Shown: positions 11,150 to 41,891 of the stretch, piece after piece
How the letters are laid out: each line of letters starts with the position of its first letter
How positions within the stretch are numbered: the stretch's first letter is position 1
Virus record (IMG/VR): IMGVR_UViG_3300025889_018102
Span: 1 to 64,000 of that record
Reading direction: 5' to 3' (one strand)
Origin: a virus
Length of the DNA stretch: 64,000 nucleotides
Translations under genes and position numbers: made by a program
Notes under the pieces: generated by a model
What the model was told of the DNA's origin: nothing
The model's input: the letters and a program-made list of their open reading frames with translations, nothing else
Databases searched by the model: none

Positions 11150-11911
11150 ATGAATACTATTGTAATTGCAACTGGTGGATTTGATCCTTTACATTCTGGT
11201 CATATAAAATATCTTGAAGCTGCAAGACAACTAGGTGACAGATTAATCATCGGTTTAAATTCTGATGCTTGGTTAACTAGAAAAAAAGGTCGTTCTTTTA
11301 TGCCGTTTTTAGAACGACAGGCAGTTCTTAAAGGTTTAAGTTGTACCGGTTATGTTATTGGATTTGATGATTCTGATAACTCAGCGAAAAATGTAATTCA
11401 TATGGTAAGACAATCTTATCCACAAGATAAAATCATTTTTGTAAATGGAGGAGATCGTACAAAAGATAATATTCCGGAAATGGATATACAGGATAATAAC
11501 TTAGAATTTGTTTTTGGAGTTGGAGGAGAAAACAAACGAAATTCCTCGAGCTGGATTCTAGAAGAATGGAAAAATCCAAAAACATTTAGAGATTGGGGTT
11601 ATTATCGTGTATTAGATTCTCAGCCAGGAACCAAGACAAAAGAATTAGTAGTGAATCCTCAATGTTCACTATCTATGCAAAGGCATTTTAAACGTAGTGA
11701 ATATTGGCATATTGTTTCAGGTGTTGGTTGTGTAGATTTAGAGACAGAAAATAATTTTAAATCTGTATATCTTTATCCACATTCTTTTATTAATATTGCG
11801 GTGGGGACATGGCATAAACTTCGTAATACATCACAAGATATTCCACTTAAAGTTATAGAAATTCAATTTGGTGAAGATTGTATAGAAGAAGATATAGAAA
11901 GAAAAGTTTAA
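11150..11911 (+). CDS. Cytidylyltransferase-cupin fusion protein
   Basis: 253 residues in two parts. Residues 1-130 are a RfaE/TagD-like nucleotidyltransferase: GGFDPLHSGHIKYLEAA carries the HxGH motif and KRNSSSWI is near the family's SSS..I signature. Residues 150-250 form a cupin like the C-terminus of type II mannose-6-phosphate isomerase: SMQRHFKRSEYWHIVSGVG and HSFINIAVGTWHKL are the two metal-site strands. The fusion suggests activation and isomerisation of one sugar or polyol phosphate, perhaps feeding a surface or DNA modification. Confidence 0.8.
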   Translation: MNTIVIATGGFDPLHSGHIKYLEAARQLGDRLIIGLNSDAWLTRKKGRSFMPFLERQAVLKGLSCTGYVIGFDDSDNSAKNVIHMVRQSYPQDKIIFVNGGDRTKDNIPEMDIQDNNLEFVFGVGGENKRNSSSWILEEWKNPKTFRDWGYYRVLDSQPGTKTKELVVNPQCSLSMQRHFKRSEYWHIVSGVGCVDLETENNFKSVYLYPHSFINIAVGTWHKLRNTSQDIPLKVIEIQFGEDCIEEDIERKV

Positions 11912-25954: not shown

Positions 25955-26608
25955 ATGCATCTAGGACCAAAAATCTGGAAAAGATTGAATAAGTATTCCG
26001 ATAAGTTAACAGGCAAATTTACAATTAGCCAATTTAAAGAAAATTTAGAGTTTATTATTAAGCCATTTGGCGCAAAAGTAATTATAGAACTTAGATCACT
26101 TTCTAAAAATAAACTGTTTGCTATTGGTGGAGAATATGACTTTTCTACTAATAGACAACCTATAACTATTTTTTTATTTATAAATCAGAATAAACAACAG
26201 ATATATCTTTCAAAAAAAAGAAAAGAAAGTTTCCTCTTCCAATTGAATCAGACTTTACAGCACGAATTAATACATAAATTTCAGCACGCTAAAAAACAAG
26301 AAAAATTTTATACTACACAATATAACTTCTCTAAAGGATCCGCTAAACGCGGATTATCTTCTATGGAATATTTGGCTATTGTTGAAGAGATAGATGCTTA
26401 TTCCCATGATCTTGCTATGGAGATTATTTATTATTATCCTGAGGATAATTACAAAACTATATTAAATAACTTGAGTAAATATAAGAAGTTATATACATGG
26501 AATCTATACTCTACAACATTTAAAGGGGCGAGATGGAATCATATCAAAGCCGTGCTTTTACTTAAAACTTACAAGTGGTTACCTTTAATCAAAGAAAAAT
26601 TCCTTTAA
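25955..26608 (+). CDS. HExxH metallopeptidase-like protein
   Basis: 217 residues. LQHELIHKFQHAKK carries HExxH, and VEEIDAYSHDLAME about 70 residues later can supply the third zinc ligand. AAGGAG lies ten bases before the ATG. It is preceded by a late promoter, so it may belong to the virion or to assembly. The substrate is unknown; a different, shorter HExxH protein is at 9530. Confidence 0.65.
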   Translation: MHLGPKIWKRLNKYSDKLTGKFTISQFKENLEFIIKPFGAKVIIELRSLSKNKLFAIGGEYDFSTNRQPITIFLFINQNKQQIYLSKKRKESFLFQLNQTLQHELIHKFQHAKKQEKFYTTQYNFSKGSAKRGLSSMEYLAIVEEIDAYSHDLAMEIIYYYPEDNYKTILNNLSKYKKLYTWNLYSTTFKGARWNHIKAVLLLKTYKWLPLIKEKFL

Positions 26609-27951: not shown

Positions 27952-28539
27952 ATGAATGAGTTTAAATCCTTTCTAGAAGAAAGATTCATCAATCTTCTTC
28001 CTCAACATGAAAAAGAAAAGCATGAACATGCTGATCATGTGTGGAATATGCTTCAGACAGCATATAAGCCTTTAGGTGGAATTCATGGTTCGGGATTTGA
28101 ATCAAAAGAAGATATGGTAAAGAAAATACCGATGTGGAAATTACATAAAGAAGGTGGAAAAGTTCGTTCTGTTCAACTATATAAAGATAAAGAAGGTAGA
28201 AAGCGTGTTGCTATAGCTACAGATGGAACAGATGCGGGTAAACGTGGATTAGCATCTATGATGAAAGATGATTTCAAACAAAAAAGATCGTATGGTGAAG
28301 TTTCTGGTCCCTCTCTATCTTTTTTAAAAAAACATCTTCCCAATGTCAGAGATTTTGCTATTCCGCGCCATCAAGCAGCTAAATTAGCAAAAGAAGAATT
28401 ACGCAAACCACCACATGATGATCCCGAGCTTCAGAAACATCCAGAACTAAAACATCATTTTTACCAAAGAAAAATTGGAGGAGAGTGGCATACTAAAGTG
28501 ATGCTAGGGATACCACACAATCCTATAAGATCTAAATAA
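27952..28539 (+). CDS. Putative packaged internal protein
   Basis: 195 residues. The N-terminus MNEFKSFLEER resembles the T4 capsid-targeting peptide that ends at an L-x-E prohead-protease site. The body is His- and Lys-rich (HEKEKHEHADHVWNML, PHDDPELQKHPELKHHF) with no catalytic motif I recognise. It precedes an early promoter, so its timing is unclear. Confidence 0.55.
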   Translation: MNEFKSFLEERFINLLPQHEKEKHEHADHVWNMLQTAYKPLGGIHGSGFESKEDMVKKIPMWKLHKEGGKVRSVQLYKDKEGRKRVAIATDGTDAGKRGLASMMKDDFKQKRSYGEVSGPSLSFLKKHLPNVRDFAIPRHQAAKLAKEELRKPPHDDPELQKHPELKHHFYQRKIGGEWHTKVMLGIPHNPIRSK

Positions 28540-28584
28540 TTGATTTTAAAGTGTTTTTTTAATGTAAAAAGTTTAAAAAAAAGC

Positions 28585-28612
28585 TTGACATTTAGTATAG
28601 AACATGTATAAT
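28585..28612 (+). promoter_or_regulatory. Early sigma70 promoter
   Basis: TTGACA at 28585 and TATAAT at 28607, spacer 16. It precedes the membrane micropeptide and the 141-residue gene. Confidence 0.85.
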
Positions 28613-28644
28613 ATGGTTTTACGATGATAGAAGGATGCGGGAAA

Positions 28645-28713
28645 ATGAATATGGACAAAGTAATTTTTATCACTGCAGTTGTACTTTTTCCCGTTCTTTT
28701 TATTCTGTATTGA
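28645..28713 (+). CDS. 22-residue single-helix membrane micropeptide
   Basis: MNMDKVIFITAVVLFPVLFILY, ATG just after a GGATGCGGG stretch and directly downstream of the promoter. The peptide is one membrane helix. Comparable to small early membrane peptides of phages; unproven. Confidence 0.4.
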   Translation: MNMDKVIFITAVVLFPVLFILY

Positions 28714-28772
28714 TTGACAGAAGTATAGTAGGGTGTTATAATTGTTTTTTTAACTTGAGAGGTGCATATATT

Positions 28773-29198
28773 ATGAATGCAAAGTATAATTTTGGTGGTG
28801 TGTCTAAGCGTCTGGGTAAGTTCAAAGTCCGTGTAGGTCAAGGTGATATGGTAACTCGTATTAAGGCTATGATTAAAGCTGGGCATACGGATATTGAGTT
28901 GGTAGAGTTTGATGAAAAGTTCACTAAGGCGCAGATTTGCGAGAAGCTTCTAAAGAATGATAAGTTCAAAGATTACGAAGCTATTATCAATCAAACTTAT
29001 GATAAGAAGATGGGTCTGACAACTGTTAAGGTTTCGTCAGCCAAACCCACAAAAAACAAGAAGTCTGTTAAGAAGACTCAGCCTGTTTCTAAGAAGGAAA
29101 AGGCAGTGAAGCAACCCAAGGTAGTTATTGGATCTAAGCCTAGTAAAGATGAGGAAGATGATCTAATGATTGAAGAAATCAAACAATATGCAGTATAA
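28773..29198 (+). CDS. Hypothetical protein with Lys-rich linker
   Basis: The ATG at 28773 follows GAGAGG and gives 141 residues. Residues 1-90 look folded (KFKVRVGQGDMVTRIKAMI), followed by a Lys/Pro linker (KPTKNKKSVKKTQPVSKKEK) and a short acidic tail. The linker suggests binding to nucleic acid. No family recognised. Confidence 0.65.
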   Translation: MNAKYNFGGVSKRLGKFKVRVGQGDMVTRIKAMIKAGHTDIELVEFDEKFTKAQICEKLLKNDKFKDYEAIINQTYDKKMGLTTVKVSSAKPTKNKKSVKKTQPVSKKEKAVKQPKVVIGSKPSKDEEDDLMIEEIKQYAV

Positions 29199-29216
29199 TT
29201 TTATGGAGTATCTTGA

Positions 29217-29459
29217 ATGAAAACTCAAAATGAGAAGTTAGTATCGTATTTTAAGACAGGTCGTAAGTTGAATCAAGCCCAAGCCCGAGGTCTTTTTGGA
29301 GTGAAGAATCTTCCAGCACGTGTTGCTGAACTACGTGATGCTGGTATGGCAATTTACACTAATACTAGTAAGAAGGGCACCAGTTATCGTCTTGGGCGTC
29401 CTAATCAACGTATGGTAAGTTTTGCGTATAGGCTAGCGGGTACTCAATTTTTTGAGTAA
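29217..29459 (+). CDS. Winged-helix-like DNA-binding protein
   Basis: 80 residues. LNQAQARGLFGVKNLPARVAELR followed by IYTNTSKKGTSYRLG is a helix-turn-helix plus wing pattern used by small phage regulators. It is the last gene before a strong terminator and the start of the late block. Confidence 0.7.
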   Translation: MKTQNEKLVSYFKTGRKLNQAQARGLFGVKNLPARVAELRDAGMAIYTNTSKKGTSYRLGRPNQRMVSFAYRLAGTQFFE

Positions 29460-29483
29460 ACGTAGAGGTAGATAAATTTTTCA

Positions 29484-29505
29484 GGGCGCTTTGGCGCCCT
29501 TTTTT
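29484..29505 (+). terminator. Rho-independent terminator
   Basis: GGGCGC and GCGCCC pair across TTTG and are followed by six T. It separates early genes from the late block; a late promoter begins four bases later. Confidence 0.93.
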
Positions 29506-29509
29506 ATTG

Positions 29510-29517
29510 TATAAATA
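29510..29517 (+). promoter_or_regulatory. T4-type late promoter TATAAATA
   Basis: An exact octamer immediately after the terminator and 26 bases before the ATG of the 443-residue gene. Confidence 0.82.
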
Positions 29518-29542
29518 TTAAAATAAACCACGGATTACGTAG

Positions 29543-30874
29543 ATGGCTTCTCGCGGTAAAGAAAAATTTGAAAAATATTTCAAAGATAAAGAGATATCTA
29601 CCTTTGTCAAGGGAAAAGATAAACAACAAGTAAAAATAACTAATGAGAAGGGAATCGTAATTGATACAATATATGCTAATACTCCAATTATTGTTCCCGC
29701 GGTAAAAGATTTTTCCCCTAAGTATAAAATTTTATATAAAAAAAATAACATAGAAACTATTGGCTATATCCACGAATCTTTTGTTTCTAAACCTATTGAT
29801 ATCTCAAAGGGTGGGGCGACCGAGTTATTAGGTATTCAGTCCAATACACTAATAACTTTGGGAAAAAAGGATATATTTGAGTATAATGGTATGAAAATAC
29901 CAGGATATTCGTTTACTACAGCTAGTCAATTAGCTAATTCTATTCTTGCAAATTTAAGAAAAAATCCTAAGGTAAACAGAGATAATTCTGGCATACTTTT
30001 AGTGCTTGAAAATTACTTTAAAAGTTCTAATCCTAAAAAAATTACTTGGAACACTGAAGTTTTACCCCCAGAAATAAATGAATTAGGTAAATATTTGGGT
30101 GAATTACTCTTAGGATATATCATTCTAAAATCACCTTCTTCATATCCTGTAATTAAAGGCACACCTAAGTATTTTTTTATTCCCGATGAATCCAGTTTTA
30201 AAGGTGTTGATACATTTATAAAAACAACTACAGGATTATACCCTATCTCTAATAAATTTGGTGTGGGTGCCAAAGCATCTTTTTTTGGTAATCTTCTTCC
30301 TATTGCCTTAGATAAGTATCAATACTTACCCTCAAACTCCACTATAAAAGAAATAGCAGATATTACTAAAAAATTAAACATAACCTCTGCAGATCTTTTA
30401 AGAAACAAGGGAGCTAAAAATATAGTTTATGAGTATGGAGTACGAGTTATTTTAGGAATACCTGCAACTAAAGTAAAAAATACATATGATGTGTATACTA
30501 ATATAAAAACTTCTACGACAGATAAAAATTTAACTAAAGAAAGTAGTACAGTAGTTGATGCTATAAAATCAATAAAAAATTTAGAAACAAATATAAAAAT
30601 TAATCTTCCAAAATCAATTACTGCATTTTTCAATAGACAAATATCGTCAGAATTAAATTCTGACTCCAAATCTGTAAACTTTATGTTAGATGTTCTTGCT
30701 GGTAAAGAATTTTATCAGGCAAATTTAAATATAGATAGATGGAAGGAAGGTGAAATCATATATTCATTAACAAAATCTGGAGATGTTTCTATAAACATTA
30801 TTGGTAGTAAGTCAGCAATTTCAGATATTGAGTCTAAACAAGGTTTAATAAATTACGAACTTAAGGTAAAATAA
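29543..30874 (+). CDS. Large hypothetical late protein
   Basis: 443 residues. An SH3-like beta region opens it (KQQVKITNEKGIVIDTIYAN), followed by helices and a Ser/Lys/Asn-rich C-terminus (KTSTTDKNLTKESSTVV). No family recognised. A late promoter and virion-like neighbours suggest a structural or packaged role. Confidence 0.6.
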   Translation: MASRGKEKFEKYFKDKEISTFVKGKDKQQVKITNEKGIVIDTIYANTPIIVPAVKDFSPKYKILYKKNNIETIGYIHESFVSKPIDISKGGATELLGIQSNTLITLGKKDIFEYNGMKIPGYSFTTASQLANSILANLRKNPKVNRDNSGILLVLENYFKSSNPKKITWNTEVLPPEINELGKYLGELLLGYIILKSPSSYPVIKGTPKYFFIPDESSFKGVDTFIKTTTGLYPISNKFGVGAKASFFGNLLPIALDKYQYLPSNSTIKEIADITKKLNITSADLLRNKGAKNIVYEYGVRVILGIPATKVKNTYDVYTNIKTSTTDKNLTKESSTVVDAIKSIKNLETNIKINLPKSITAFFNRQISSELNSDSKSVNFMLDVLAGKEFYQANLNIDRWKEGEIIYSLTKSGDVSINIIGSKSAISDIESKQGLINYELKVK

Positions 30875-32043
30875 TGTTATCATTTCAAACTTTTTTAACA
30901 GAAGCTGCCACAGAAGAAAAGTTAAAACATCTGGAGCATGCAGAGGATCATCCTATCAATGCGGGGGAGGCAGGATTTAATCATGCGAAAACTACTCTTA
31001 TGGGTGTGCATGATGCACTGCGAGGTAAAGGATCTAAAGTCTCTATATCAACTAAATATGATGGTTCACCTAGCATTGTTTTCGGATATCATCCAGAGAA
31101 TAAAAGATTCTTTGTCGCCTCAAAATCAGCTTTCAATAAGAATCCAAAGTTAAATTATACAACAGATGATATAGAAAAGAACCATGGTCATGCACCAGGT
31201 TTAGTATCAAAACTTAAATCTGCTCTAACACATCTACCAAAAGTTACTCCACATACTGGTGTTTATCAGGGCGATTTTATGTATTCCAAGAGTGATAATG
31301 ATGTTAGTTCATCACGAGATTCTTATCATTTTAAACCAAATACTATAACATATTCAGCAAAAAAGAATTCTGAACATGGTCAAGCAATAAAGAATGCAAA
31401 GATTGGTGTAGTTGTTCATACTGCTTATCATGGAAATAAATTAGAAGATATGAAAGCAGAATATAATGCTGATACTAGTCATTTTACAAAACATCCAGAT
31501 GTACATTTAATTAGTCCCAATTATGATTCTAAAAAATCGCATTATTCACCAGAACATCAAAAAGAATTTGAATCTCATATGCGTATGGCGGAAAATGAGC
31601 ACAAAAAATTAGCAGATTATAGTCATTTACACGGACATATTGATACTGTCAAGACATATATAAATAGTGCAGTGAGAGAAGGAGTAGCTCCCTCTACAAA
31701 AGGATATAGATCACATTTAGAAGCGTTTCATAATAAAAAAATTGCAGATGTAAAGACTGAAGCATCTAAAACTGCAAAAAGAAAAATTGCAAACGAAGCA
31801 CTACAACATGTAGATTCTAATAAGAGTTTATTTGATCATACATTTAAGTTGCATCATCATCTACAAAAAGCCAAAGATATATTAAACAATACCTTATCAG
31901 CATCTGAGCAACAATTTCATCATAGTATTTCGGGGCAATTAGCAAAGCCTGAGGGGCATGTAGCAGTGATAAATAATAGACCCACAAAACTAGTTGATAG
32001 AGCTGAATTTAGTAGAGCTAATTTTTTAGCAAGACCAAGATGA
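30874..32043 (+). CDS. Ligase-fold nucleotidyltransferase-like protein (DUF6267 type) with packaging signal
   Basis: 389 residues. MLSFQTFLTEAATEE resembles a T4 capsid-targeting sequence with an L-T-E/A cleavage site. STKYDGSPSIVFGY matches ligase motif I (KxDGxx) and GVYQGDFMY a later ligase strand, so covalent nucleotidyl transfer through that Lys is likely. The substrate (RNA, DNA or other) is unknown. It overlaps the HAD gene by four bases. The C-terminal 150 residues are His/Lys-rich and helical. Confidence 0.7.
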   Translation: MLSFQTFLTEAATEEKLKHLEHAEDHPINAGEAGFNHAKTTLMGVHDALRGKGSKVSISTKYDGSPSIVFGYHPENKRFFVASKSAFNKNPKLNYTTDDIEKNHGHAPGLVSKLKSALTHLPKVTPHTGVYQGDFMYSKSDNDVSSSRDSYHFKPNTITYSAKKNSEHGQAIKNAKIGVVVHTAYHGNKLEDMKAEYNADTSHFTKHPDVHLISPNYDSKKSHYSPEHQKEFESHMRMAENEHKKLADYSHLHGHIDTVKTYINSAVREGVAPSTKGYRSHLEAFHNKKIADVKTEASKTAKRKIANEALQHVDSNKSLFDHTFKLHHHLQKAKDILNNTLSASEQQFHHSISGQLAKPEGHVAVINNRPTKLVDRAEFSRANFLARPR

Positions 32044-32657
32044 AAACATTAAGGCAACTAAAAGAAGAAATACATCAGAAATATAGTCATCTACATGTTT
32101 TTGATATAGATGATACTTTATTTCATCCTACTGCAAAAGTTAATGTAGTAGATAACGCGGGTAATAAAGTAAAATCTTTATCTAGTAAAGAATATGCTCA
32201 TCATAGCACTCATAATTTATTAAAATCAACTGAAAAATATGATTTTACAGAATTTAGAAATGCTAAAAAATTTAAACAAGAATCTAATCCGATTCATTCC
32301 ACGTTAAATCTAGTAAAATCTTTACAAAAATCTCCTCATAATCATATTATTCTTAATACTGCTAGAGTAAATATGGATAATAAGAATACTTTTTTAAATA
32401 CATTTAAAGCACATGGACTAAATATGAACAAGATTCATATTATACGTGCTGGTAATATAAATGCCCCTGTATCATCAGATATGAAGAAAGCAACAGTTAT
32501 TAGAGGGTATATAAACAAACATAAATATAAACATGTTCATATGTATGATGATGATACTAAAAACTTAAGTACATTTAAAGATTTAAAACATGATTATCCT
32601 AATACCAATTTTTATGCTCATCATGTACAGCATACAGGTGAATTAAAGGATTTTTAA
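32040..32657 (+). CDS. HAD-superfamily phosphatase-like protein with packaging signal
   Basis: 205 residues. HVFDIDDTLFHP is HAD motif I, HIILNTARVN motif II and HMYDDDTKN motif IV. The N-terminus MKTLRQLKEEIHQ resembles T4 capsid-targeting peptides. Coupling to the ligase-like gene suggests both act on the same nucleic-acid ends or metabolite; that is inference. Confidence 0.75.
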   Translation: MKTLRQLKEEIHQKYSHLHVFDIDDTLFHPTAKVNVVDNAGNKVKSLSSKEYAHHSTHNLLKSTEKYDFTEFRNAKKFKQESNPIHSTLNLVKSLQKSPHNHIILNTARVNMDNKNTFLNTFKAHGLNMNKIHIIRAGNINAPVSSDMKKATVIRGYINKHKYKHVHMYDDDTKNLSTFKDLKHDYPNTNFYAHHVQHTGELKDF

Positions 32658-32733
32658 TCATCATACGCCACATAGCGAAGTTTACATGGTTGTCAATGAT
32701 TAATCAATAGAGAAGATAACTTTTTAAAAGTTT

Positions 32734-33474
32734 ATGAGAACGATTAAAGAAAAGTTAATGCTTGTAAAGTTATCACAGGATCTCGGAATGCCTGTTGATT
32801 CTGATCTATTGGAAGAAGTAACACGTTATAAAGATATGCAGCGTAATCTTATAGAATCAGTACGTAAGAATTCCGCATTAGATCTTTTTGATTTAAAAAA
32901 TATAGAAGAAGAACAGATTACTATATCTGAACCAATACAAGAAGAAGTTCGTTATGAAACACCACCACCAGTTATAGTGCCAGAAAAAAGTTTAGTAGAT
33001 AGAGTCGCACAAGAAATAGAAAAACAAGTTTCTAGAGAACAAGATTCGTTTCAACAACCAGATCCTTTAGTTACGCAACCAAATTTTGATGCTATTACAA
33101 AAAAGTTAAAATTTTTAGAACAAGCCATTAGTAAGATTGCAGTTACGGGACCTGGTGGTGGTGCTAGTGATGTAGTAGATCTTACACATAGAGTAGTATC
33201 AGTTACATCAAATTCTTATACTATGGGAAGAAAAGATTATTATGTAGGTGTTAATTATAGTGGAGCAGTAAACATTTATTTACCTTCTAAACCAGCACAA
33301 GGAAGAAAAGTTGTAGTTAAAGACGAATCAGGTAATTGTGCTAATGGAGTAAATCGTTGGATTACAGTACGTGGAAGTAATAGTGATTTAATTGATGGTA
33401 AAAATGCTGCTAATATAGCAATAAACTATGGCTCCTTAACTTTTGTGAACAAAAACGGATGGAGAATTATCTAA
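32734..33474 (+). CDS. Virion structural protein candidate
   Basis: 246 residues. A helical N-terminus with an acidic, Pro-rich linker, then GPGGGASDVVDLTHRVVSVT and a beta-rich end (YVGVNYSGAVNIYLPSKPAQ, GRKVVVKDESGN, TFVNKNGWRII). That C-terminal beta domain is common in fibre and head-decoration proteins of T4-like marine phages. The precise position in the particle is unknown. Confidence 0.65.
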   Translation: MRTIKEKLMLVKLSQDLGMPVDSDLLEEVTRYKDMQRNLIESVRKNSALDLFDLKNIEEEQITISEPIQEEVRYETPPPVIVPEKSLVDRVAQEIEKQVSREQDSFQQPDPLVTQPNFDAITKKLKFLEQAISKIAVTGPGGGASDVVDLTHRVVSVTSNSYTMGRKDYYVGVNYSGAVNIYLPSKPAQGRKVVVKDESGNCANGVNRWITVRGSNSDLIDGKNAANIAINYGSLTFVNKNGWRII

Positions 33475-34686
33475 GTGTCTCACTTATTTTCAGATCGAGT
33501 TGGCTTTATACGCAGTACTGTAGATGCGTTTAATAGATTAAAAACTTCAGAACCTTTTACCCTTTTTGAAAATCAAATGAGATTTAATGAGGGGTATAAA
33601 TTTAGTACAGCAAATTCTATAGGTACATATACAGAACATAAACCAAATGAAAGTGTTTTGGATATGGTTGTTGATGCAAATTCTGGTTCATATGTCTATA
33701 GAGAATCAAAAAGAGTTTTTTCTTATCAACCTGGAAAATCTCTAGGTATTATGTTAACTTTTGTTTTTGCACCTGCAAAAACAAATTTACGGCAACGTGT
33801 AGGTTATTTTGGCAATAAAAATGGTATTTATCTAGAACAAAATGGATCTGATATTAAATTAGTTTTAAGATCAAATGTTACAGGAACAGTTGTTAATCAA
33901 GAAGTTTTGCAAAGTGATTGGATAGATGATCCTTTTGATGGAACCGGAGCTTCAGGAAGAATATTAGATGTAAGTAAGGCTAATATTTTTTGGATTGATA
34001 TTGAATGGTTAGGTGTAGGAGATGTAAGATGTGGTTTTATAGTACATGGCGAACCCATAACAGCACATACATTTCACAATGATAATGTAAATACTACCAC
34101 ATATATGACTACTGCATGTTTACCTGTAAGATATGAGATAGAAAATACAGGAAGTACTATAAGTTCTAGTACTATGAAACAAATTTGTACTACAGTTATA
34201 TCAGATGGAGGATTTCAGGGAAGAAGTTTAAATACTAGAGTGGGGCATGATTTAACACCTTTATATGATTTAACGTTAGCTAATACATGGTATCCAGTAC
34301 TAAGTATACGATTGAAAAGTACTAGATTAGAGGCTATTGTTTTACCAAATTTTGTCGATCTTTATTCACCTACAAATAATGCCATTTTTAAATATCAGGT
34401 AAGATTAAATGGTACGCTTACAGGTAATACTTTTTTACCTGTAAGTGACGATAGTTCTGTAGAATATACTCTCACCTCAACCGAAATTTCTGATGGACGA
34501 ATACTAGAATCTGGTTATTTTTCAGCTGGAAAATCTGGTTCTATTACTATTGGTGTACAGGAAGATTTTAATTTTCAACTTGGTAGAACATTAGCAAATG
34601 TTAGTGATATTGTAACAGTTTGTGTAATGACCGACACTGCAGGTGCGGATATTGGTGCTATTATTGGTTGGAATGAAATAATTTGA
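33475..34686 (+). CDS. Large beta-rich virion structural protein candidate
   Basis: 403 residues from a GTG directly after the preceding stop. MSHLFSDRVGFIRSTVDAFN followed by long beta stretches (LGIMLTFVFAPAKTNLRQRV, FWIDIEWLGVGDVRCGFIV) is typical of phage fibre or decoration proteins. No catalytic motif. Its order with the preceding gene suggests a shared structure. Confidence 0.65.
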   Translation: MSHLFSDRVGFIRSTVDAFNRLKTSEPFTLFENQMRFNEGYKFSTANSIGTYTEHKPNESVLDMVVDANSGSYVYRESKRVFSYQPGKSLGIMLTFVFAPAKTNLRQRVGYFGNKNGIYLEQNGSDIKLVLRSNVTGTVVNQEVLQSDWIDDPFDGTGASGRILDVSKANIFWIDIEWLGVGDVRCGFIVHGEPITAHTFHNDNVNTTTYMTTACLPVRYEIENTGSTISSSTMKQICTTVISDGGFQGRSLNTRVGHDLTPLYDLTLANTWYPVLSIRLKSTRLEAIVLPNFVDLYSPTNNAIFKYQVRLNGTLTGNTFLPVSDDSSVEYTLTSTEISDGRILESGYFSAGKSGSITIGVQEDFNFQLGRTLANVSDIVTVCVMTDTAGADIGAIIGWNEII

Positions 34687-34692
34687 TAAATA
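34685..34692 (+). promoter_or_regulatory. Late-type promoter GATAAATA
   Basis: One base from the T4 late consensus, 30 bases before the next ATG and overlapping the stop of the structural gene. Confidence 0.6.
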
Positions 34693-34722
34693 ATATATAA
34701 CTTTATTTTTTACGGGAAAATA

Positions 34723-35865
34723 ATGAAATTTAGAGATTTTATTGTAGAGGGAAGCGAAAAAACAACAGTTTTCGCCTTTGGGCGTATGAATCCAGGACCT
34801 ACAACTGGTCATCAAAAATTGATTAATACTGTAATATCTCTTGCCAAAGAACATAAAGCAGATCATCTGATCGTTATGTCTCATTCCCAAGATCCGAAGA
34901 AAAATCCTTTAAGTCCAGAGCAGAAATTAAAACATGCTAAAAGATTTTTTCCAAAAGTTAACTTTAGAACATCCTCTAAGCAATCTCCATCATATCTAAC
35001 TCATGCTGCAGAGTTACATAAAAGTGGTACAAAACATTTGATTATGGTTGGTGGATCTGATAGAGTAGAAGAATTCCATAAAACATTACACAAATATAAT
35101 GGAGAAGGTGAGGGTAAACTTTTTAATTTTAAATCAATTAAAGTTGTTTCCTCCGGAGAAAGAGATCCTGATGCTGAAGGTGCTGAAGGTATGTCAGCAT
35201 CTAAGATGCGTGCTCATGCTGCAGCAAATAACTTTAAAGAATTTCGTAAAGGTGTTCCCTCTCATATATCAGATTCACATGCAAAAGAACTTTTTCATGA
35301 TACACAAGAAGGTATGAAATCTGCGTCTAAAACAGTTAGAGAACAATATTACAATAAAGAAATTTATAATGTTGGAGATATAGTTTTTGTTGAACAGAAT
35401 GAAGTTATGATAATTTCTTGTAATAGTAATTATGTCACTGTTGAAACTTTAGATGGTAGTATAGAAAAAAGATGGTTAACTGATATACAGGAAGAAGCAC
35501 CTATTATTGAGAAGAAATCTTCAATTGTTATGGCAACACCTCGTCCTTATAATGAATCATTTACATTTAAAACAAAAAAAGGAAGAGAAATACCCCGTTT
35601 ATTAATGTCTCCAGCACAGATTGCTGAAATGGCAAAAAATGCAGAATCTTTAAATCAAATTTCTTTTTTAGATTATGAGACAAAAAATTTTGATATTGAA
35701 CCTAAAGCAAAAGAATTGTTTGATAAATTAATAGATGCTTTAGGACCTGTTGACATTAATATCAATGATGTAAGTAGAAATAAACAGATACAGAATTATA
35801 TAGGAGCAATGGCTGACCCATCTCATGTTCGTAGACAACATTTTAGGAATTATACTGAATTATGA
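34723..35865 (+). CDS. Nucleotidylyltransferase (HxGH superfamily) with packaging signal
   Basis: 380 residues. MKFRDFIVEGSEK looks like a capsid-targeting peptide with I-V-E/G cleavage. FAFGRMNPGPTTGHQKLIN carries the TxGH motif of NadM/cytidylyltransferases and GMSASKMRAHAA the S-S-x-x-R motif. The C-terminal 180 residues hold a short SH3-like strand set and helices of unknown role. It might act on NAD or a nucleotide substrate after injection; untested. Confidence 0.72.
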   Translation: MKFRDFIVEGSEKTTVFAFGRMNPGPTTGHQKLINTVISLAKEHKADHLIVMSHSQDPKKNPLSPEQKLKHAKRFFPKVNFRTSSKQSPSYLTHAAELHKSGTKHLIMVGGSDRVEEFHKTLHKYNGEGEGKLFNFKSIKVVSSGERDPDAEGAEGMSASKMRAHAAANNFKEFRKGVPSHISDSHAKELFHDTQEGMKSASKTVREQYYNKEIYNVGDIVFVEQNEVMIISCNSNYVTVETLDGSIEKRWLTDIQEEAPIIEKKSSIVMATPRPYNESFTFKTKKGREIPRLLMSPAQIAEMAKNAESLNQISFLDYETKNFDIEPKAKELFDKLIDALGPVDININDVSRNKQIQNYIGAMADPSHVRRQHFRNYTEL

Positions 35866-35919
35866 TATTACAACAATCATACATGAAAACTACTGTTAGT
35901 TTCTAGGGGCTAGTTTTAA

Positions 35920-36759
35920 ATGAACAACGAAAAAGAAATACAAGCTGAGATTTTAAAACGTGCTATTATAGCTACAGATGCATATTTAGGTATGTATAAA
36001 GACGCTTTGCGTACAAAGATTATTACTCAACAACAAGTCCATGATTTTACTGTAAAATTATCTATTGCCATGGAGGCATTAAAACATCTTAAAGATTTAC
36101 AGAATCATAATGCTTATATAGAATCTATAATATCTGATATGGCTAAATTTTTACCATATCATGGAGATTCTTTCTTTTTTGATGAACCCTATACACATAT
36201 TCCTGCTTCTTTTCCTGATGGTAGTGTAGATGAGGGATTAAAAGATCCTGAAGATAATCCATGTTGGAATGGATATAAACCTGTAGGTGTAAAGAAAAAG
36301 AATGGTAAAACTGTTCCAAATTGTGTTCCGGTTAAAGAAGAAGAAGAACTTGATATTGATGATATAATTGATGATTTAGAATGGGATGATATTTCCGATA
36401 CTTATGAAGAAGAGCAATTAGAAGAAGAGATTTTAGACGAAAAAATTTCTGCTGCTTCTAGATTACGTAAAAGAATGCATTTTAAAAGAACAACACCAAA
36501 GAGACAATTGGGAGCCTCTATAAAATTAAGTAGACCTTCCACTATGTCGCAATTACAGAATAGAGCTAAAGTTGCTGCAAGAAGATTGTTAATGAAACGA
36601 TTTCTTTATGGAAGAAATAAAGCGCAATTATCAGCACAAGAAAAAGATTCGTTAGAAGCACGTATAAAAGCTATGAAAAATATACGTACTATACTTGCAC
36701 AAAGATTGATACCAAAGATTCGTTCTCTTGAAAGTAAACGCTTAAAATCAAAGAGATGA
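35920..36759 (+). CDS. Putative capsid-associated protein with basic C-terminus
   Basis: 279 residues in three parts: a helical start; a block with DNPCWNGYKPVGVKKKNGK that recurs in T4-like marine phage proteins; an acidic linker; and a basic helical tail rich in Arg and Lys (RLRKRMHFKRTTPKRQLG). The tail could bind packaged DNA. I recognise this architecture only as conserved phage protein. Confidence 0.6.
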   Translation: MNNEKEIQAEILKRAIIATDAYLGMYKDALRTKIITQQQVHDFTVKLSIAMEALKHLKDLQNHNAYIESIISDMAKFLPYHGDSFFFDEPYTHIPASFPDGSVDEGLKDPEDNPCWNGYKPVGVKKKNGKTVPNCVPVKEEEELDIDDIIDDLEWDDISDTYEEEQLEEEILDEKISAASRLRKRMHFKRTTPKRQLGASIKLSRPSTMSQLQNRAKVAARRLLMKRFLYGRNKAQLSAQEKDSLEARIKAMKNIRTILAQRLIPKIRSLESKRLKSKR

Positions 36760-36765
36760 TAAATA
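36758..36765 (+). promoter_or_regulatory. Late-type promoter GATAAATA
   Basis: Overlaps the stop codon of the previous gene, 25 bases before the next ATG. Confidence 0.6.
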
Positions 36766-36790
36766 ATAAATCAATAAATAGATAAACAGG

Positions 36791-37189
36791 ATGAAAACTT
36801 TTAAAACCTTTAAAAATGACTTCTATATTGCAGAATCTGATGTAGATTCTGTGGAGGAAAGTTTTATTATTTGTGATGATATAGAATATGAAACTTGGGG
36901 TGATGATTTAGTTGAAGAAGCTGAAGTGCAGGGTAAAAAAGTAAAATTAGGCAAGCCTTTTTTAACACCATCTGGACCTAAGAAACGTGCTGTTTATGTA
37001 AAAAATGATAAGGGAAATGTTGTAAAAGTTAATTTTGGTGATCCAAATATGGAAATTAAGCGTGATAGTCCTGAGCGTCGTAAAAATTATAGAGCAAGAC
37101 ATAATTGCGATAATCCGGGTCCCCGCTGGAAAGCGAACTACTGGAGCTGTCGTTACTGGTCATCAACACCTGTTAGTAAATTAGATTAA
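36791..37189 (+). CDS. Putative packaged capsid protein with C-terminal Cys/Trp motif
   Basis: 132 residues. The N-terminus MKTFKTFKNDFYIAESD matches the capsid-targeting pattern with an I-A-E/S site. The end RHNCDNPGPRWKANYWSCRY is a block I have seen at the end of many T4-like phage proteins, with two Cys able to bind metal. Function unknown. Confidence 0.6.
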   Translation: MKTFKTFKNDFYIAESDVDSVEESFIICDDIEYETWGDDLVEEAEVQGKKVKLGKPFLTPSGPKKRAVYVKNDKGNVVKVNFGDPNMEIKRDSPERRKNYRARHNCDNPGPRWKANYWSCRYWSSTPVSKLD

Positions 37190-37199
37190 GAGGAAAAAT

Positions 37200-37982
37200 A
37201 TGCGTACTCTAGTAGAAACAGCAGCAGATATACTTAATGGTAAACTGGATGAAGCAAAGAAACCACTTCATCCAAATCAACAAAAACTTGACATCCACGA
37301 ACCTGAAAAAGATGAGTTAACAGCAAAAGACTTTGAGATGCTACGTAAAGGTAAGACCGTAGCGACTGTCAAAGAAGAACTAAAAGGCGATATTCATCCA
37401 GATGCAGACGAGGTATTAAAACATATTGAACCAGAACACCGTCGTAAATATTTGCCGTGGTTAAAGAAAGGTACATACAAAATTGACAGCAAGCGGAGTA
37501 GTTATGCTGATCGTAGTGCTATATTAAGAGCAGCAGAAAGAGCAGGTCATACCGTGAAAGATGTGACGGAAGGTGTTATTGAAGAAACTATTATTAAAGA
37601 AGATTCGTTTGAAGTTACTTTACCAAAAAAGTTAGAATATTCTGATTATGTAAAAGCATATCTAACACTTGAAGGAGTAACTTCATTTTCTGAATTATCA
37701 GAAGAGCAATTACATCTTGCTTTAGAGACAATAGAAGTTGCATATGAAAATAGAGTAGAAGATTTAGTTATTGAAGCATTATCATGGGAAGAAATTGGTA
37801 AATTAGCTAATAGAAAAGATGTAACAGATCTCAAAACTAAAATTGTAAATGGAAAGCCGCATGTCAGTTATGTAATGACTGATAAAAATGGTATGAAGCG
37901 CCGCTATTTGCATCATGGTAACATTAGAAGAGTTGAAAATATTGGTCAGACCGTTAAACCTGACTCAACCGACGAAGATTAA
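37200..37982 (+). CDS. Putative packaged internal protein
   Basis: 260 residues. The start MRTLVETAADILNGKLDEAK contains L-V-E/T and L-D-E/A sites compatible with prohead protease. Acidic and helical middle, and a C-terminal beta part (KPHVSYVMTDKNGMKRRYLH). No enzyme motif. GAGG lies before the ATG. Confidence 0.55.
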   Translation: MRTLVETAADILNGKLDEAKKPLHPNQQKLDIHEPEKDELTAKDFEMLRKGKTVATVKEELKGDIHPDADEVLKHIEPEHRRKYLPWLKKGTYKIDSKRSSYADRSAILRAAERAGHTVKDVTEGVIEETIIKEDSFEVTLPKKLEYSDYVKAYLTLEGVTSFSELSEEQLHLALETIEVAYENRVEDLVIEALSWEEIGKLANRKDVTDLKTKIVNGKPHVSYVMTDKNGMKRRYLHHGNIRRVENIGQTVKPDSTDED

Positions 37983-41218: not shown

Positions 41219-41891
41219 ACTTATTTCTTATTCACAACCAAATTTAGATCCAGAAACACATGAAGATAACACCTTTTTACAATTTATTAAATCACCACAA
41301 GACTTAGTTGCTTTTTGTGCCCGTGTATCCAATCCACAAAATCAACATAATACAGAGACATCTGATAAACTACTTAAATATTTGGTCAAAAACAAACATT
41401 GGAGTCCATTTGAACTTGTCTCCGCTTGTTTAGAGATTACAACGACAAGAGATATTGCTAGACAAATTCTTAGACATAGAAGTTTTTCATTTCAAGAATT
41501 TAGTCAACGATATGCCGATCCAGTTAAAGAACTTTCATTTGTACTTAGAGATCCACGTCTACAAGATACAAAAAATAGACAAAATAGTATAGAAGTTCAG
41601 AATGAATACTTACAGAGGGAATGGGAATATCAACAATATAGAGTATTAGAGGCAGCAAAAGAAGCATATAAAAGAGCTATTTCTAAAGGTATTGCTAAAG
41701 AACAAGCAAGAGCAGTTTTACCAGAAGGATTGATTGAATCAAAACTATATATGAATGGAACTTTACGCTCATGGATTCATTATATTGAGCTTCGATCTGG
41801 CAATGGTACACAAAAAGAGCATAGAGAGATCGCGGTTGAATGTGCAAAAGTTCTTTCAAAAGTATTTCCAATTATTAAGGAGTTTGCATGA
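41208..41891 (+). CDS. thyX: Flavin-dependent thymidylate synthase
   Basis: 227 residues from ATG 41208. RHRSFSFQEFSQR is the ThyX RHRxxSxxxxSxR signature. The enzyme methylates dUMP to dTMP using FAD and methylene-folate. Upstream dCMP deaminase and NrdAB make the dUMP pool. It overlaps both neighbours. Confidence 0.96.
   Translation: MQVRLISYSQPNLDPETHEDNTFLQFIKSPQDLVAFCARVSNPQNQHNTETSDKLLKYLVKNKHWSPFELVSACLEITTTRDIARQILRHRSFSFQEFSQRYADPVKELSFVLRDPRLQDTKNRQNSIEVQNEYLQREWEYQQYRVLEAAKEAYKRAISKGIAKEQARAVLPEGLIESKLYMNGTLRSWIHYIELRSGNGTQKEHREIAVECAKVLSKVFPIIKEFA

Follow-up and report, generated by a model that had tools for sequence, protein, structure and literature searches.

The first 64,000 bases (bases 1-64000, hereafter the window) of the 155,949-bp IMG/VR virus record IMGVR_UViG_3300025889_018102 contain a cluster of plus-strand genes in which several unrelated enzymes open with what appear to be capsid-targeting leaders of the kind carried by the internal head proteins of phage T4. 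We called 215 open reading frames (ORFs) in the full record, which belongs to a T4-like phage: it encodes a T4-type major head protein (phrog_138, 7.6e-158), a scaffold (phrog_237) and a head maturation protease (phrog_207). No near DNA relative was found in the phage collection searched, and the named relatives that a translated search returned for the cluster genes, including Pelagibacter phage HTVC008M, Methylophilales phage Melnitz, phage C48C1 and many cyanophages, are all less than 60% identical. The preliminary description of the cluster singled out six proteins, and all six ORFs begin with ATG as it claimed: 27952..28539 (195 amino acids, aa), 30874..32043, 32040..32657, 34723..35865, 36791..37189 (132 aa) and 37200..37982 (260 aa), with the leader-tagged enzymes falling within about 8 kb. 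The second and third of these belong to a run headed by a leaderless 443-aa ORF (29543..30874; neither PHROG nor Pfam gave a match above cut-off), the genes 29543, 30874 and 32040 abutting or overlapping, so that the start of 32040 overlaps the end of the 30874 gene. A virion structural gene, 33475 (phrog_1645), also sits inside the cluster.

The T4 leader that the preliminary description took as its model, MKTYQEFIAE/A, is confirmed in the T4 record, where ipII and ipIII start MKTYQEFIAEA and ipI starts MKTFKEFTSTTTPVSTITEA. According to mutagenesis in T4, residues 4 and 7 matter most for targeting, and residues 8 and 10 for processing (PMC9026906; here and below, papers are cited for part of their text), and it is on these positions that our strict leader pattern, ^M.{1,3}[FYL]..[FLI][ILVMF].E, rests. 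It is matched by three of the six proteins: 27952 (MNEFKSFLEE, leader at 27952..27981, predicted cut after E10), 30874 (MLSFQTFLTEA, leader MLSFQTFLTE/A at 30874..30903) and 34723 (MKFRDFIVEG, putative cut MKFRDFIVE/G, leader at 34723..34749, one residue shorter than that of T4). The leader of 32040, MKTLRQLKEE, matches a relaxed pattern only, and its homologs vary, some having a clean leader at the same place, e.g., MKTFKTFLTEAVGKKSLHIFDIDDTL, and others none. Neither pattern is matched by 36791 (MKTFKTFKNDFYIAES) or 37200 (MRTLVETAADILNGKLDEA), although the N-terminal sequence of each could be read as a longer, ipI-like leader, in 37200 MRTLVETAADILNGKLDE/A. A leader of about 10 residues with aromatic or hydrophobic residues near positions 4 and 7 and an L/I-x-E site, which had been attributed to all six proteins, was found in strict form in three, in relaxed form in one, and not in the two with these weak candidates. 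Where homologs could be aligned the key residues hold: M1, F4, F7 and E10 of 27952 are identical in 3/3 aligned sequences, and in the alignment for 30874 the leader Glu, E10, is invariant in 47/47 with a hydrophobic residue at P3. In the AlphaFold2 model of the latter protein residues 1-12 have a pLDDT below 50, i.e., the leader lies outside the confident fold. By eye, MazG at 41888 also seemed to begin with a leader, and it was dropped because the PHROG MazG match already starts at residue 1.

Are these leaders simply what chance would place at the N-termini of a genome of this size? Only three of the 215 ORFs in the full record match the strict pattern, all in the cluster, against 0.61 expected from shuffled N-termini and 1/668 internal methionines; the relaxed pattern matches 13/215 against 5.4 expected and was rejected as a stand-alone criterion because it is too loose. 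Across 161 related IMG/VR loci the strict pattern opens 116/2048 distinct ORFs (5.7%) versus 6/8998 internal methionines. Because these loci had been fetched with leader-bearing queries, we removed the homologs of four core proteins, after which the strict pattern still opened 22/1735 N-termini versus 6/6313 internal methionines (56 versus 11 with a wider pattern), and the remaining leaders sit on unrelated families. Several hydrophobic short ORFs among the matches left after this removal look spurious. Counted by family (dereplicated, and accepting a Met anywhere in residues 1-40), the leader was present in 47/70 members of the 30874 family (DUF6267), 16/37 of the family of 34723 (NMNAT-like, see below), 4/24 of the HAD family of 32040 and 9/64 of a mixed family, and in 0/42 and 0/24 of two families read, from N-terminus and length, as helicase and polymerase. 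Of 145 distinct leaders, 130 have Phe at position 4, 135 an aromatic residue at position 7 and 139 Leu or Ile at position 8, figures that are partly built into the pattern; Ser or Ala at P1', which is not part of it, occurs in 65 and is about threefold enriched. Where DUF6267 and the NMNAT-like domain are fused (28 ORFs), the leader opens the fusion in 26 and precedes the internal NMNAT part in none, and in SSM1_190 of cyanophage S-SM1 about 70 residues separate leader and domain. In Methylophilales phage Melnitz, leader-like starts are seen both in the gene preceding DUF6267 (MQGFKTFLSEA) and in the NMNAT-like gene (MKKFSEIIEA). Together these sequence comparisons support a modular, non-random leader of T4 type on several unrelated enzymes.

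A further family with the leader came to light near DUF6267 in related loci, a protein of about 180 aa (MSFKRWLFEQTE; locus L027, 3868-4407, and six members in other loci) in which the wider pattern is present in 7/7 members. Its matches to ART-PolyVal (E 0.019) and, weakly, to RNA 2'-phosphotransferase are below cut-off, and it is possibly an injected enzyme of ADP-ribosyltransferase fold (ART-like).

What do the leader-bearing proteins do? The product of 30874 is a clear member of DUF6267 (PF19782; 329.6 bits versus a Pfam cut-off of 27), a family of unknown function with matches in 468 phage records in the translated search and on which we found no paper among the open-access papers searched. 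K61, D63, Q132, G133, E360, G361, V363 and K372 are invariant in 47/47 members and G64 is conserved in at least 90%, so that the KYDGS motif, previously described as ligase-type, contains two invariant residues, K61 and D63. The invariant residues follow one another as we would expect for ligase motifs I, III, IV and V, of which I, IV and V are KxDG, EGxV and Lys. The AlphaFold2 model is confident (pLDDT 93.3), and in a fold search (VIA) RNA or DNA ligases made up 50/50 among the matches listed, led by a Naegleria RNA ligase (Z 9.4, rmsd 3.6, 184 aligned) and including the trypanosome editing ligase (8.3), T4 Rnl2 (7.8) and T4 Rnl1 (7.7). There was no PDB sequence match and no NCBIfam match. 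From conserved motifs and modeled fold, we predict that DUF6267 is a ligase-type nucleotidyltransferase.

Its neighbor 32040, in which a HAD motif (DIDDTL) had been noted, has all four HAD motifs, with D22, D24, T26, T107, K150, D170 and D171 invariant in 16/16 sequences, and is a HAD phosphatase related to phrog_415 (2.7e-8), which is labeled polynucleotide kinase. No curated model scored above cut-off, the PDB gave no sequence match, and a search of viral contigs returned one locus, on a contig encoding the same protein. The third strict leader is on 34723, a nucleotidylyltransferase (phrog_3041 and phrog_395, label cytidyltransferase; matches in 529 phage records in the translated search). 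It had been credited with an HxGH motif, and it does have the enzyme motif, although in the form TxGH (TTGH within NPGPTTGH), along with SASKMR; N23, P24, G29, H30 and R163 are invariant in 25/25. Motifs of these types, (H/T)xGH and SxTxxR, are also common to other nucleotidylyltransferases. We call the protein only NMNAT-like because it falls below the curated NMNAT and cytidylyltransferase cut-offs (TIGR00125, 20.8 versus 27.7 bits) and because its family profile matches, in the PDB, phosphopantetheine adenylyltransferases (0.0064 and 0.012) as well as UPF0348 MJ0951 (3.5e-4); with the single sequence, PDB matches were at chance level only, to a toxin chain unrelated to it (E no better than 0.33). 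Elsewhere DUF6267 and the NMNAT-like domain occur in one polypeptide, phrog_455 spanning both, and in locus L128 the NMNAT-like domain is fused to a zeta-toxin/PNK-like kinase (Zeta_toxin 2.9e-13) with a weak nadR match; these fusions link the activities. The protein at 27952 is perhaps GNAT-like: its model is weak (pLDDT 63.7), acetyltransferases are most of the 50 VIA matches listed (best Z 10.6), and there was no NCBIfam match.

Two further small nucleotidylyltransferase-like ORFs, both leaderless, can be recognized by eye at window 11150-11911 (GGFDPLHSGH) and full record 66718-67152 (GTFDLFHSGH). Cys-containing modules (CWNGYK...VPNC and YRARHNC...YWSCRYW) are encoded at window 35920-36759 and 36791-37189 and occur elsewhere in larger proteins, some with an NMNAT-like domain; in other loci the C-terminal module of the 36791 protein recurs close to the C-terminal end of large NMNAT proteins.

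A further hallmark of T4-type capsid targeting, a prohead protease of the gp21 family, is encoded in the full record at 122920-123345 (Peptidase_S77, PF03420; E 1.5e-37). With regard to timing, a late-type box, defined as [TG]ATAAATA 15-70 nt upstream of an ORF, precedes 9/40 structural-region ORFs, 1/77 elsewhere and 4/15 in the cluster (Fisher 2.5e-4 and 2.2e-3). The four cluster ORFs are 25955, 29543 (TATAAATA at 29510..29517, plus strand, 26 nt upstream), 34723 (GATAAATA at 34685..34692, plus strand) and 36791 (GATAAATA at 36758..36765, plus strand); 27952 and 37200 have no such box. The octamer TATAAATA is not over-represented overall (27 versus 22 expected on the plus strand, 5 versus 19 on the minus strand). 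Boxes before some cluster genes are consistent with late expression. The ORF at 25955-26608 of the window, with TATAAATA 30 nt upstream, encodes a possible zinc metallopeptidase (HELIHKFQH) and is kept in loci L020 and L021.

The question of whether leader-bearing enzymes enter heads can be approached through relatives with published virion detection data (PMC10665884, PMC9146016, PMC9602691, PMC3037559). In four cyanophages the NMNAT-like ortholog has a leader and was detected in the virion: S-CREM2 gp154 (MKNFSSFLTEA), S-SZBM1_140 (MRFRQFIIEA), S-SCSM1_91 (MKSFLQFLKEA) and SSM1_190 of S-SM1 (T4-GC190; MKKFSAFLNEA). The DUF6267 orthologs S-CREM2 gp87, S-SZBM1_141 and S-SCSM1_257 have no leader and are missing from the virion proteins detected in those reports. 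S-PM2 has a leaderless DUF6267-NMNAT fusion protein that contains the T4-GC190 product, and this product was not detected in virions in the part of that study cited here (PMC3037559). The reading frame upstream of these four leaderless orthologs (S-CREM2, S-SZBM1, S-SCSM1, S-PM2) contains no leader either. Virion detection was thus 4/4 for leader-bearing NMNAT-like proteins versus 0/4 for leaderless DUF6267 proteins (p 0.014), a contrast that includes S-PM2, for which the virion study may have been less sensitive. According to reports cited in these papers, an NMNAT has also been found in virions of a fifth phage, S-CBWM1. The S-PM2 record NC_006820 splits the one fusion into p141 and p142 (LN828717 has one ORF), and its "cytidyltransferase" label therefore covers part of DUF6267.

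Applied to all proteins of one phage, the strict pattern did well in S-CREM2, in which all five strict matches, a SAM hydrolase, an APH-like kinase, the NMNAT-like protein, gp13 and gp136, are virion proteins (5/52 virion versus 0/167 other proteins, p 6.5e-4, in a test made with hindsight, the virion list having been known before the pattern was fixed). The SAM hydrolase (gp6) and APH-like kinase (gp14), both virion-detected, have clean leaders at their starts. A virion-detected Cas9 of the same phage (OR473000, 7704-10313, minus strand) carries the leader-like sequence FASFMAEAA some 20 residues from its start, preceded by an in-frame CTG.

We consider the best explanation overall, at a probability of roughly 0.7, to be that this T4-like phage tags unrelated, probably late-expressed enzymes with a leader and packages them in its head. 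The leader would dock each enzyme on the scaffold core, the gp21-family protease would then cut behind the leader Glu, and the enzymes so released would remain in the head and leave with the DNA into the new cell. There the HAD phosphatase could heal cut RNA ends, probably of tRNA, for the DUF6267 ligase to seal, with the NMNAT-like enzyme sustaining the supply of NAD or adenylate. That such RNA repair, at once on infection, is the main job of the set we put at slightly under an even chance. Packaging itself appears highly likely for 27952, 30874 and 34723, somewhat favored for 32040 and rather doubtful for 36791 and 37200. The claim that the cluster encodes a late, head-packaged enzyme kit therefore stands in part, as does the observation behind it: the non-random leader, the gp21-type protease, the late-type boxes upstream of some of the genes and the leader-bearing NMNAT-like orthologs in published virions speak for it, and two weak leaders, one loose leader and the performance of the pattern in two other phages do not.

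Several of our results weigh against this explanation. The case for packaging in this phage is made by analogy with homologs, the virion data coming from relatives, and DUF6267 is absent from all three fully readable virion lists. In S-SZBM1 1/2 and in S-SCSM1 1/4 strict matches are in the virion, neither being significant; pooled, 2/6 matches are virion proteins versus 76/490 other proteins (p 0.24), so the strict pattern alone is not a proven genome-wide predictor of virion proteins. S-SZBM1_191 and S-SCSM1_30, whose leaders are clean and conserved, are undetected in the virion lists; they may have been overlooked by mass spectrometry or may be unpackaged. These are similar proteins of about 105 aa, with ESVNISGDF after the leader, encoded among virion genes. 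Many NMNAT family members are leaderless, and three strict matches among 29 RecA-type proteins are probably false. The late-type box was widened after upstream sequences had been inspected, and TATAAATA alone precedes 8/40, 1/77 and, in the cluster, 2/15 ORFs. With Foldseek alone DUF6267 had no significant match (best E 0.29), and no NMNAT was among the 60 of 82 PDB matches listed for the 34723 family profile. Lastly, the S-CREM2 authors themselves allow, in the part of their report cited here, that enzyme carriage could reflect incomplete purification.

If packaging is real, does the kit serve RNA at all? The NMNAT-like protein is the member actually found in virions, its domain is fused to a kinase elsewhere, and one phage NAD+ pathway, NARP1, is known (PMC12774641). 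It is therefore conceivable, if unlikely, that the enzyme restores NAD+ after NAD-depleting defenses, with the ligase-fold protein acting as an accessory adenylyltransferase. Against this, the scanned cluster proteins include no kinase and no further NAD-pathway enzyme, the NMNAT-type models match below cut-off while the PDB matches are of phosphopantetheine adenylyltransferase type, and the HAD and ligase proteins are left unexplained. Less probable again is that an injected ligase and phosphatase serve the phage's own DNA ends: the VIA matches do include DNA ligases (Z about 6.4 to 6.9), yet RNA ligases rank best (Z 7 to 9.4), the differences in Z being modest. We regard it as improbable that the leaders are a product of chance or just ordinary helices at the N-terminus and that the NMNAT-like protein in virions is lysate carry-over, even with the caution of the S-CREM2 authors about purification, the insignificant enrichment in two of three phages and the ease with which MazG mimics a leader by eye. 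Such an origin is hard to square with the excess of the pattern at N-termini over internal methionines, its place on unrelated families and outside the confident fold, the invariant P1 Glu and the contrast between orthologs with and without a leader. Equally improbable is packaging as core or scaffold parts with a structural role and vestigial enzyme motifs, for which slower head assembly in T4 IPIII mutants (PMC9026906) and structural gene 33475 within the cluster might be cited, because catalytic-type residues are invariant across divergent homologs.

The preferred explanation, a head-packaged set of leader-tagged enzymes, has precedents in part. The leaders resemble those of T4 IPI, IPII, IPIII and Alt in length, in aromatics at positions 4 and 7 and in the L/I-x-E site, and the genome shares with T4 a gp21-family protease and late-type boxes before some genes; unlike the T4 internal proteins, the cargo here belongs to unrelated families, several of them encoded within about 8 kb. 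Similar to S-SM1, S-SZBM1, S-SCSM1 and S-CREM2, there is a homologous NMNAT-like enzyme with a leader, detected in virions in those phages, whereas DUF6267 has a leader here and is leaderless in their orthologs. A HAD phosphatase related to phrog_415 together with a ligase-type nucleotidyltransferase recalls T4 RNA repair by Pnkp plus Rnl1, except that a separate kinase was not found in the scanned cluster. We know of no indication that T4 Pnkp and Rnl1 are packaged in the head. Polyvalent proteins embody a similar notion, that of injected enzymes whose genes lie among the late ones of the phage; they combine several domains per polypeptide, whereas here there are mostly separate leader-tagged enzymes (PMC5512222).

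The T4 leader principle is already known, and a T4 review suggested that T4-like phages may use it to load a range of proteins (PMC9026906); the finding of NMNAT-like proteins in virions is likewise published, with its authors' caution. In the portions of the cyanophage virion papers cited here the authors draw no link between packaging and the leader, and among the open-access papers searched we found none connecting leaders with cyanophage virion enzymes. As far as our searches show, the link between leader, virion and enzyme, the assignment of DUF6267 to a ligase type and the presence of the leader on several nearby enzymes are new. A more speculative proposal, which we hold only tentatively, is that in marine and freshwater T4-like phages the leader may serve as a general loading code, by which a swappable arsenal of enzymes enters the head, comprising DUF6267 as a new RNA-ligase-like family, an end-healing HAD phosphatase, NMNAT-like, GNAT-like and ART-like proteins and, in S-CREM2, the SAM hydrolase, the APH-like kinase and perhaps Cas9, with DUF6267, HAD and the NMNAT-like enzyme forming an injected kit for RNA repair and NAD maintenance, active before phage gene expression. 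If this is true, sequence could be used to shortlist the effectors that a large group of environmental T4-like phages package, and anti-defense repair would begin at time zero of infection.

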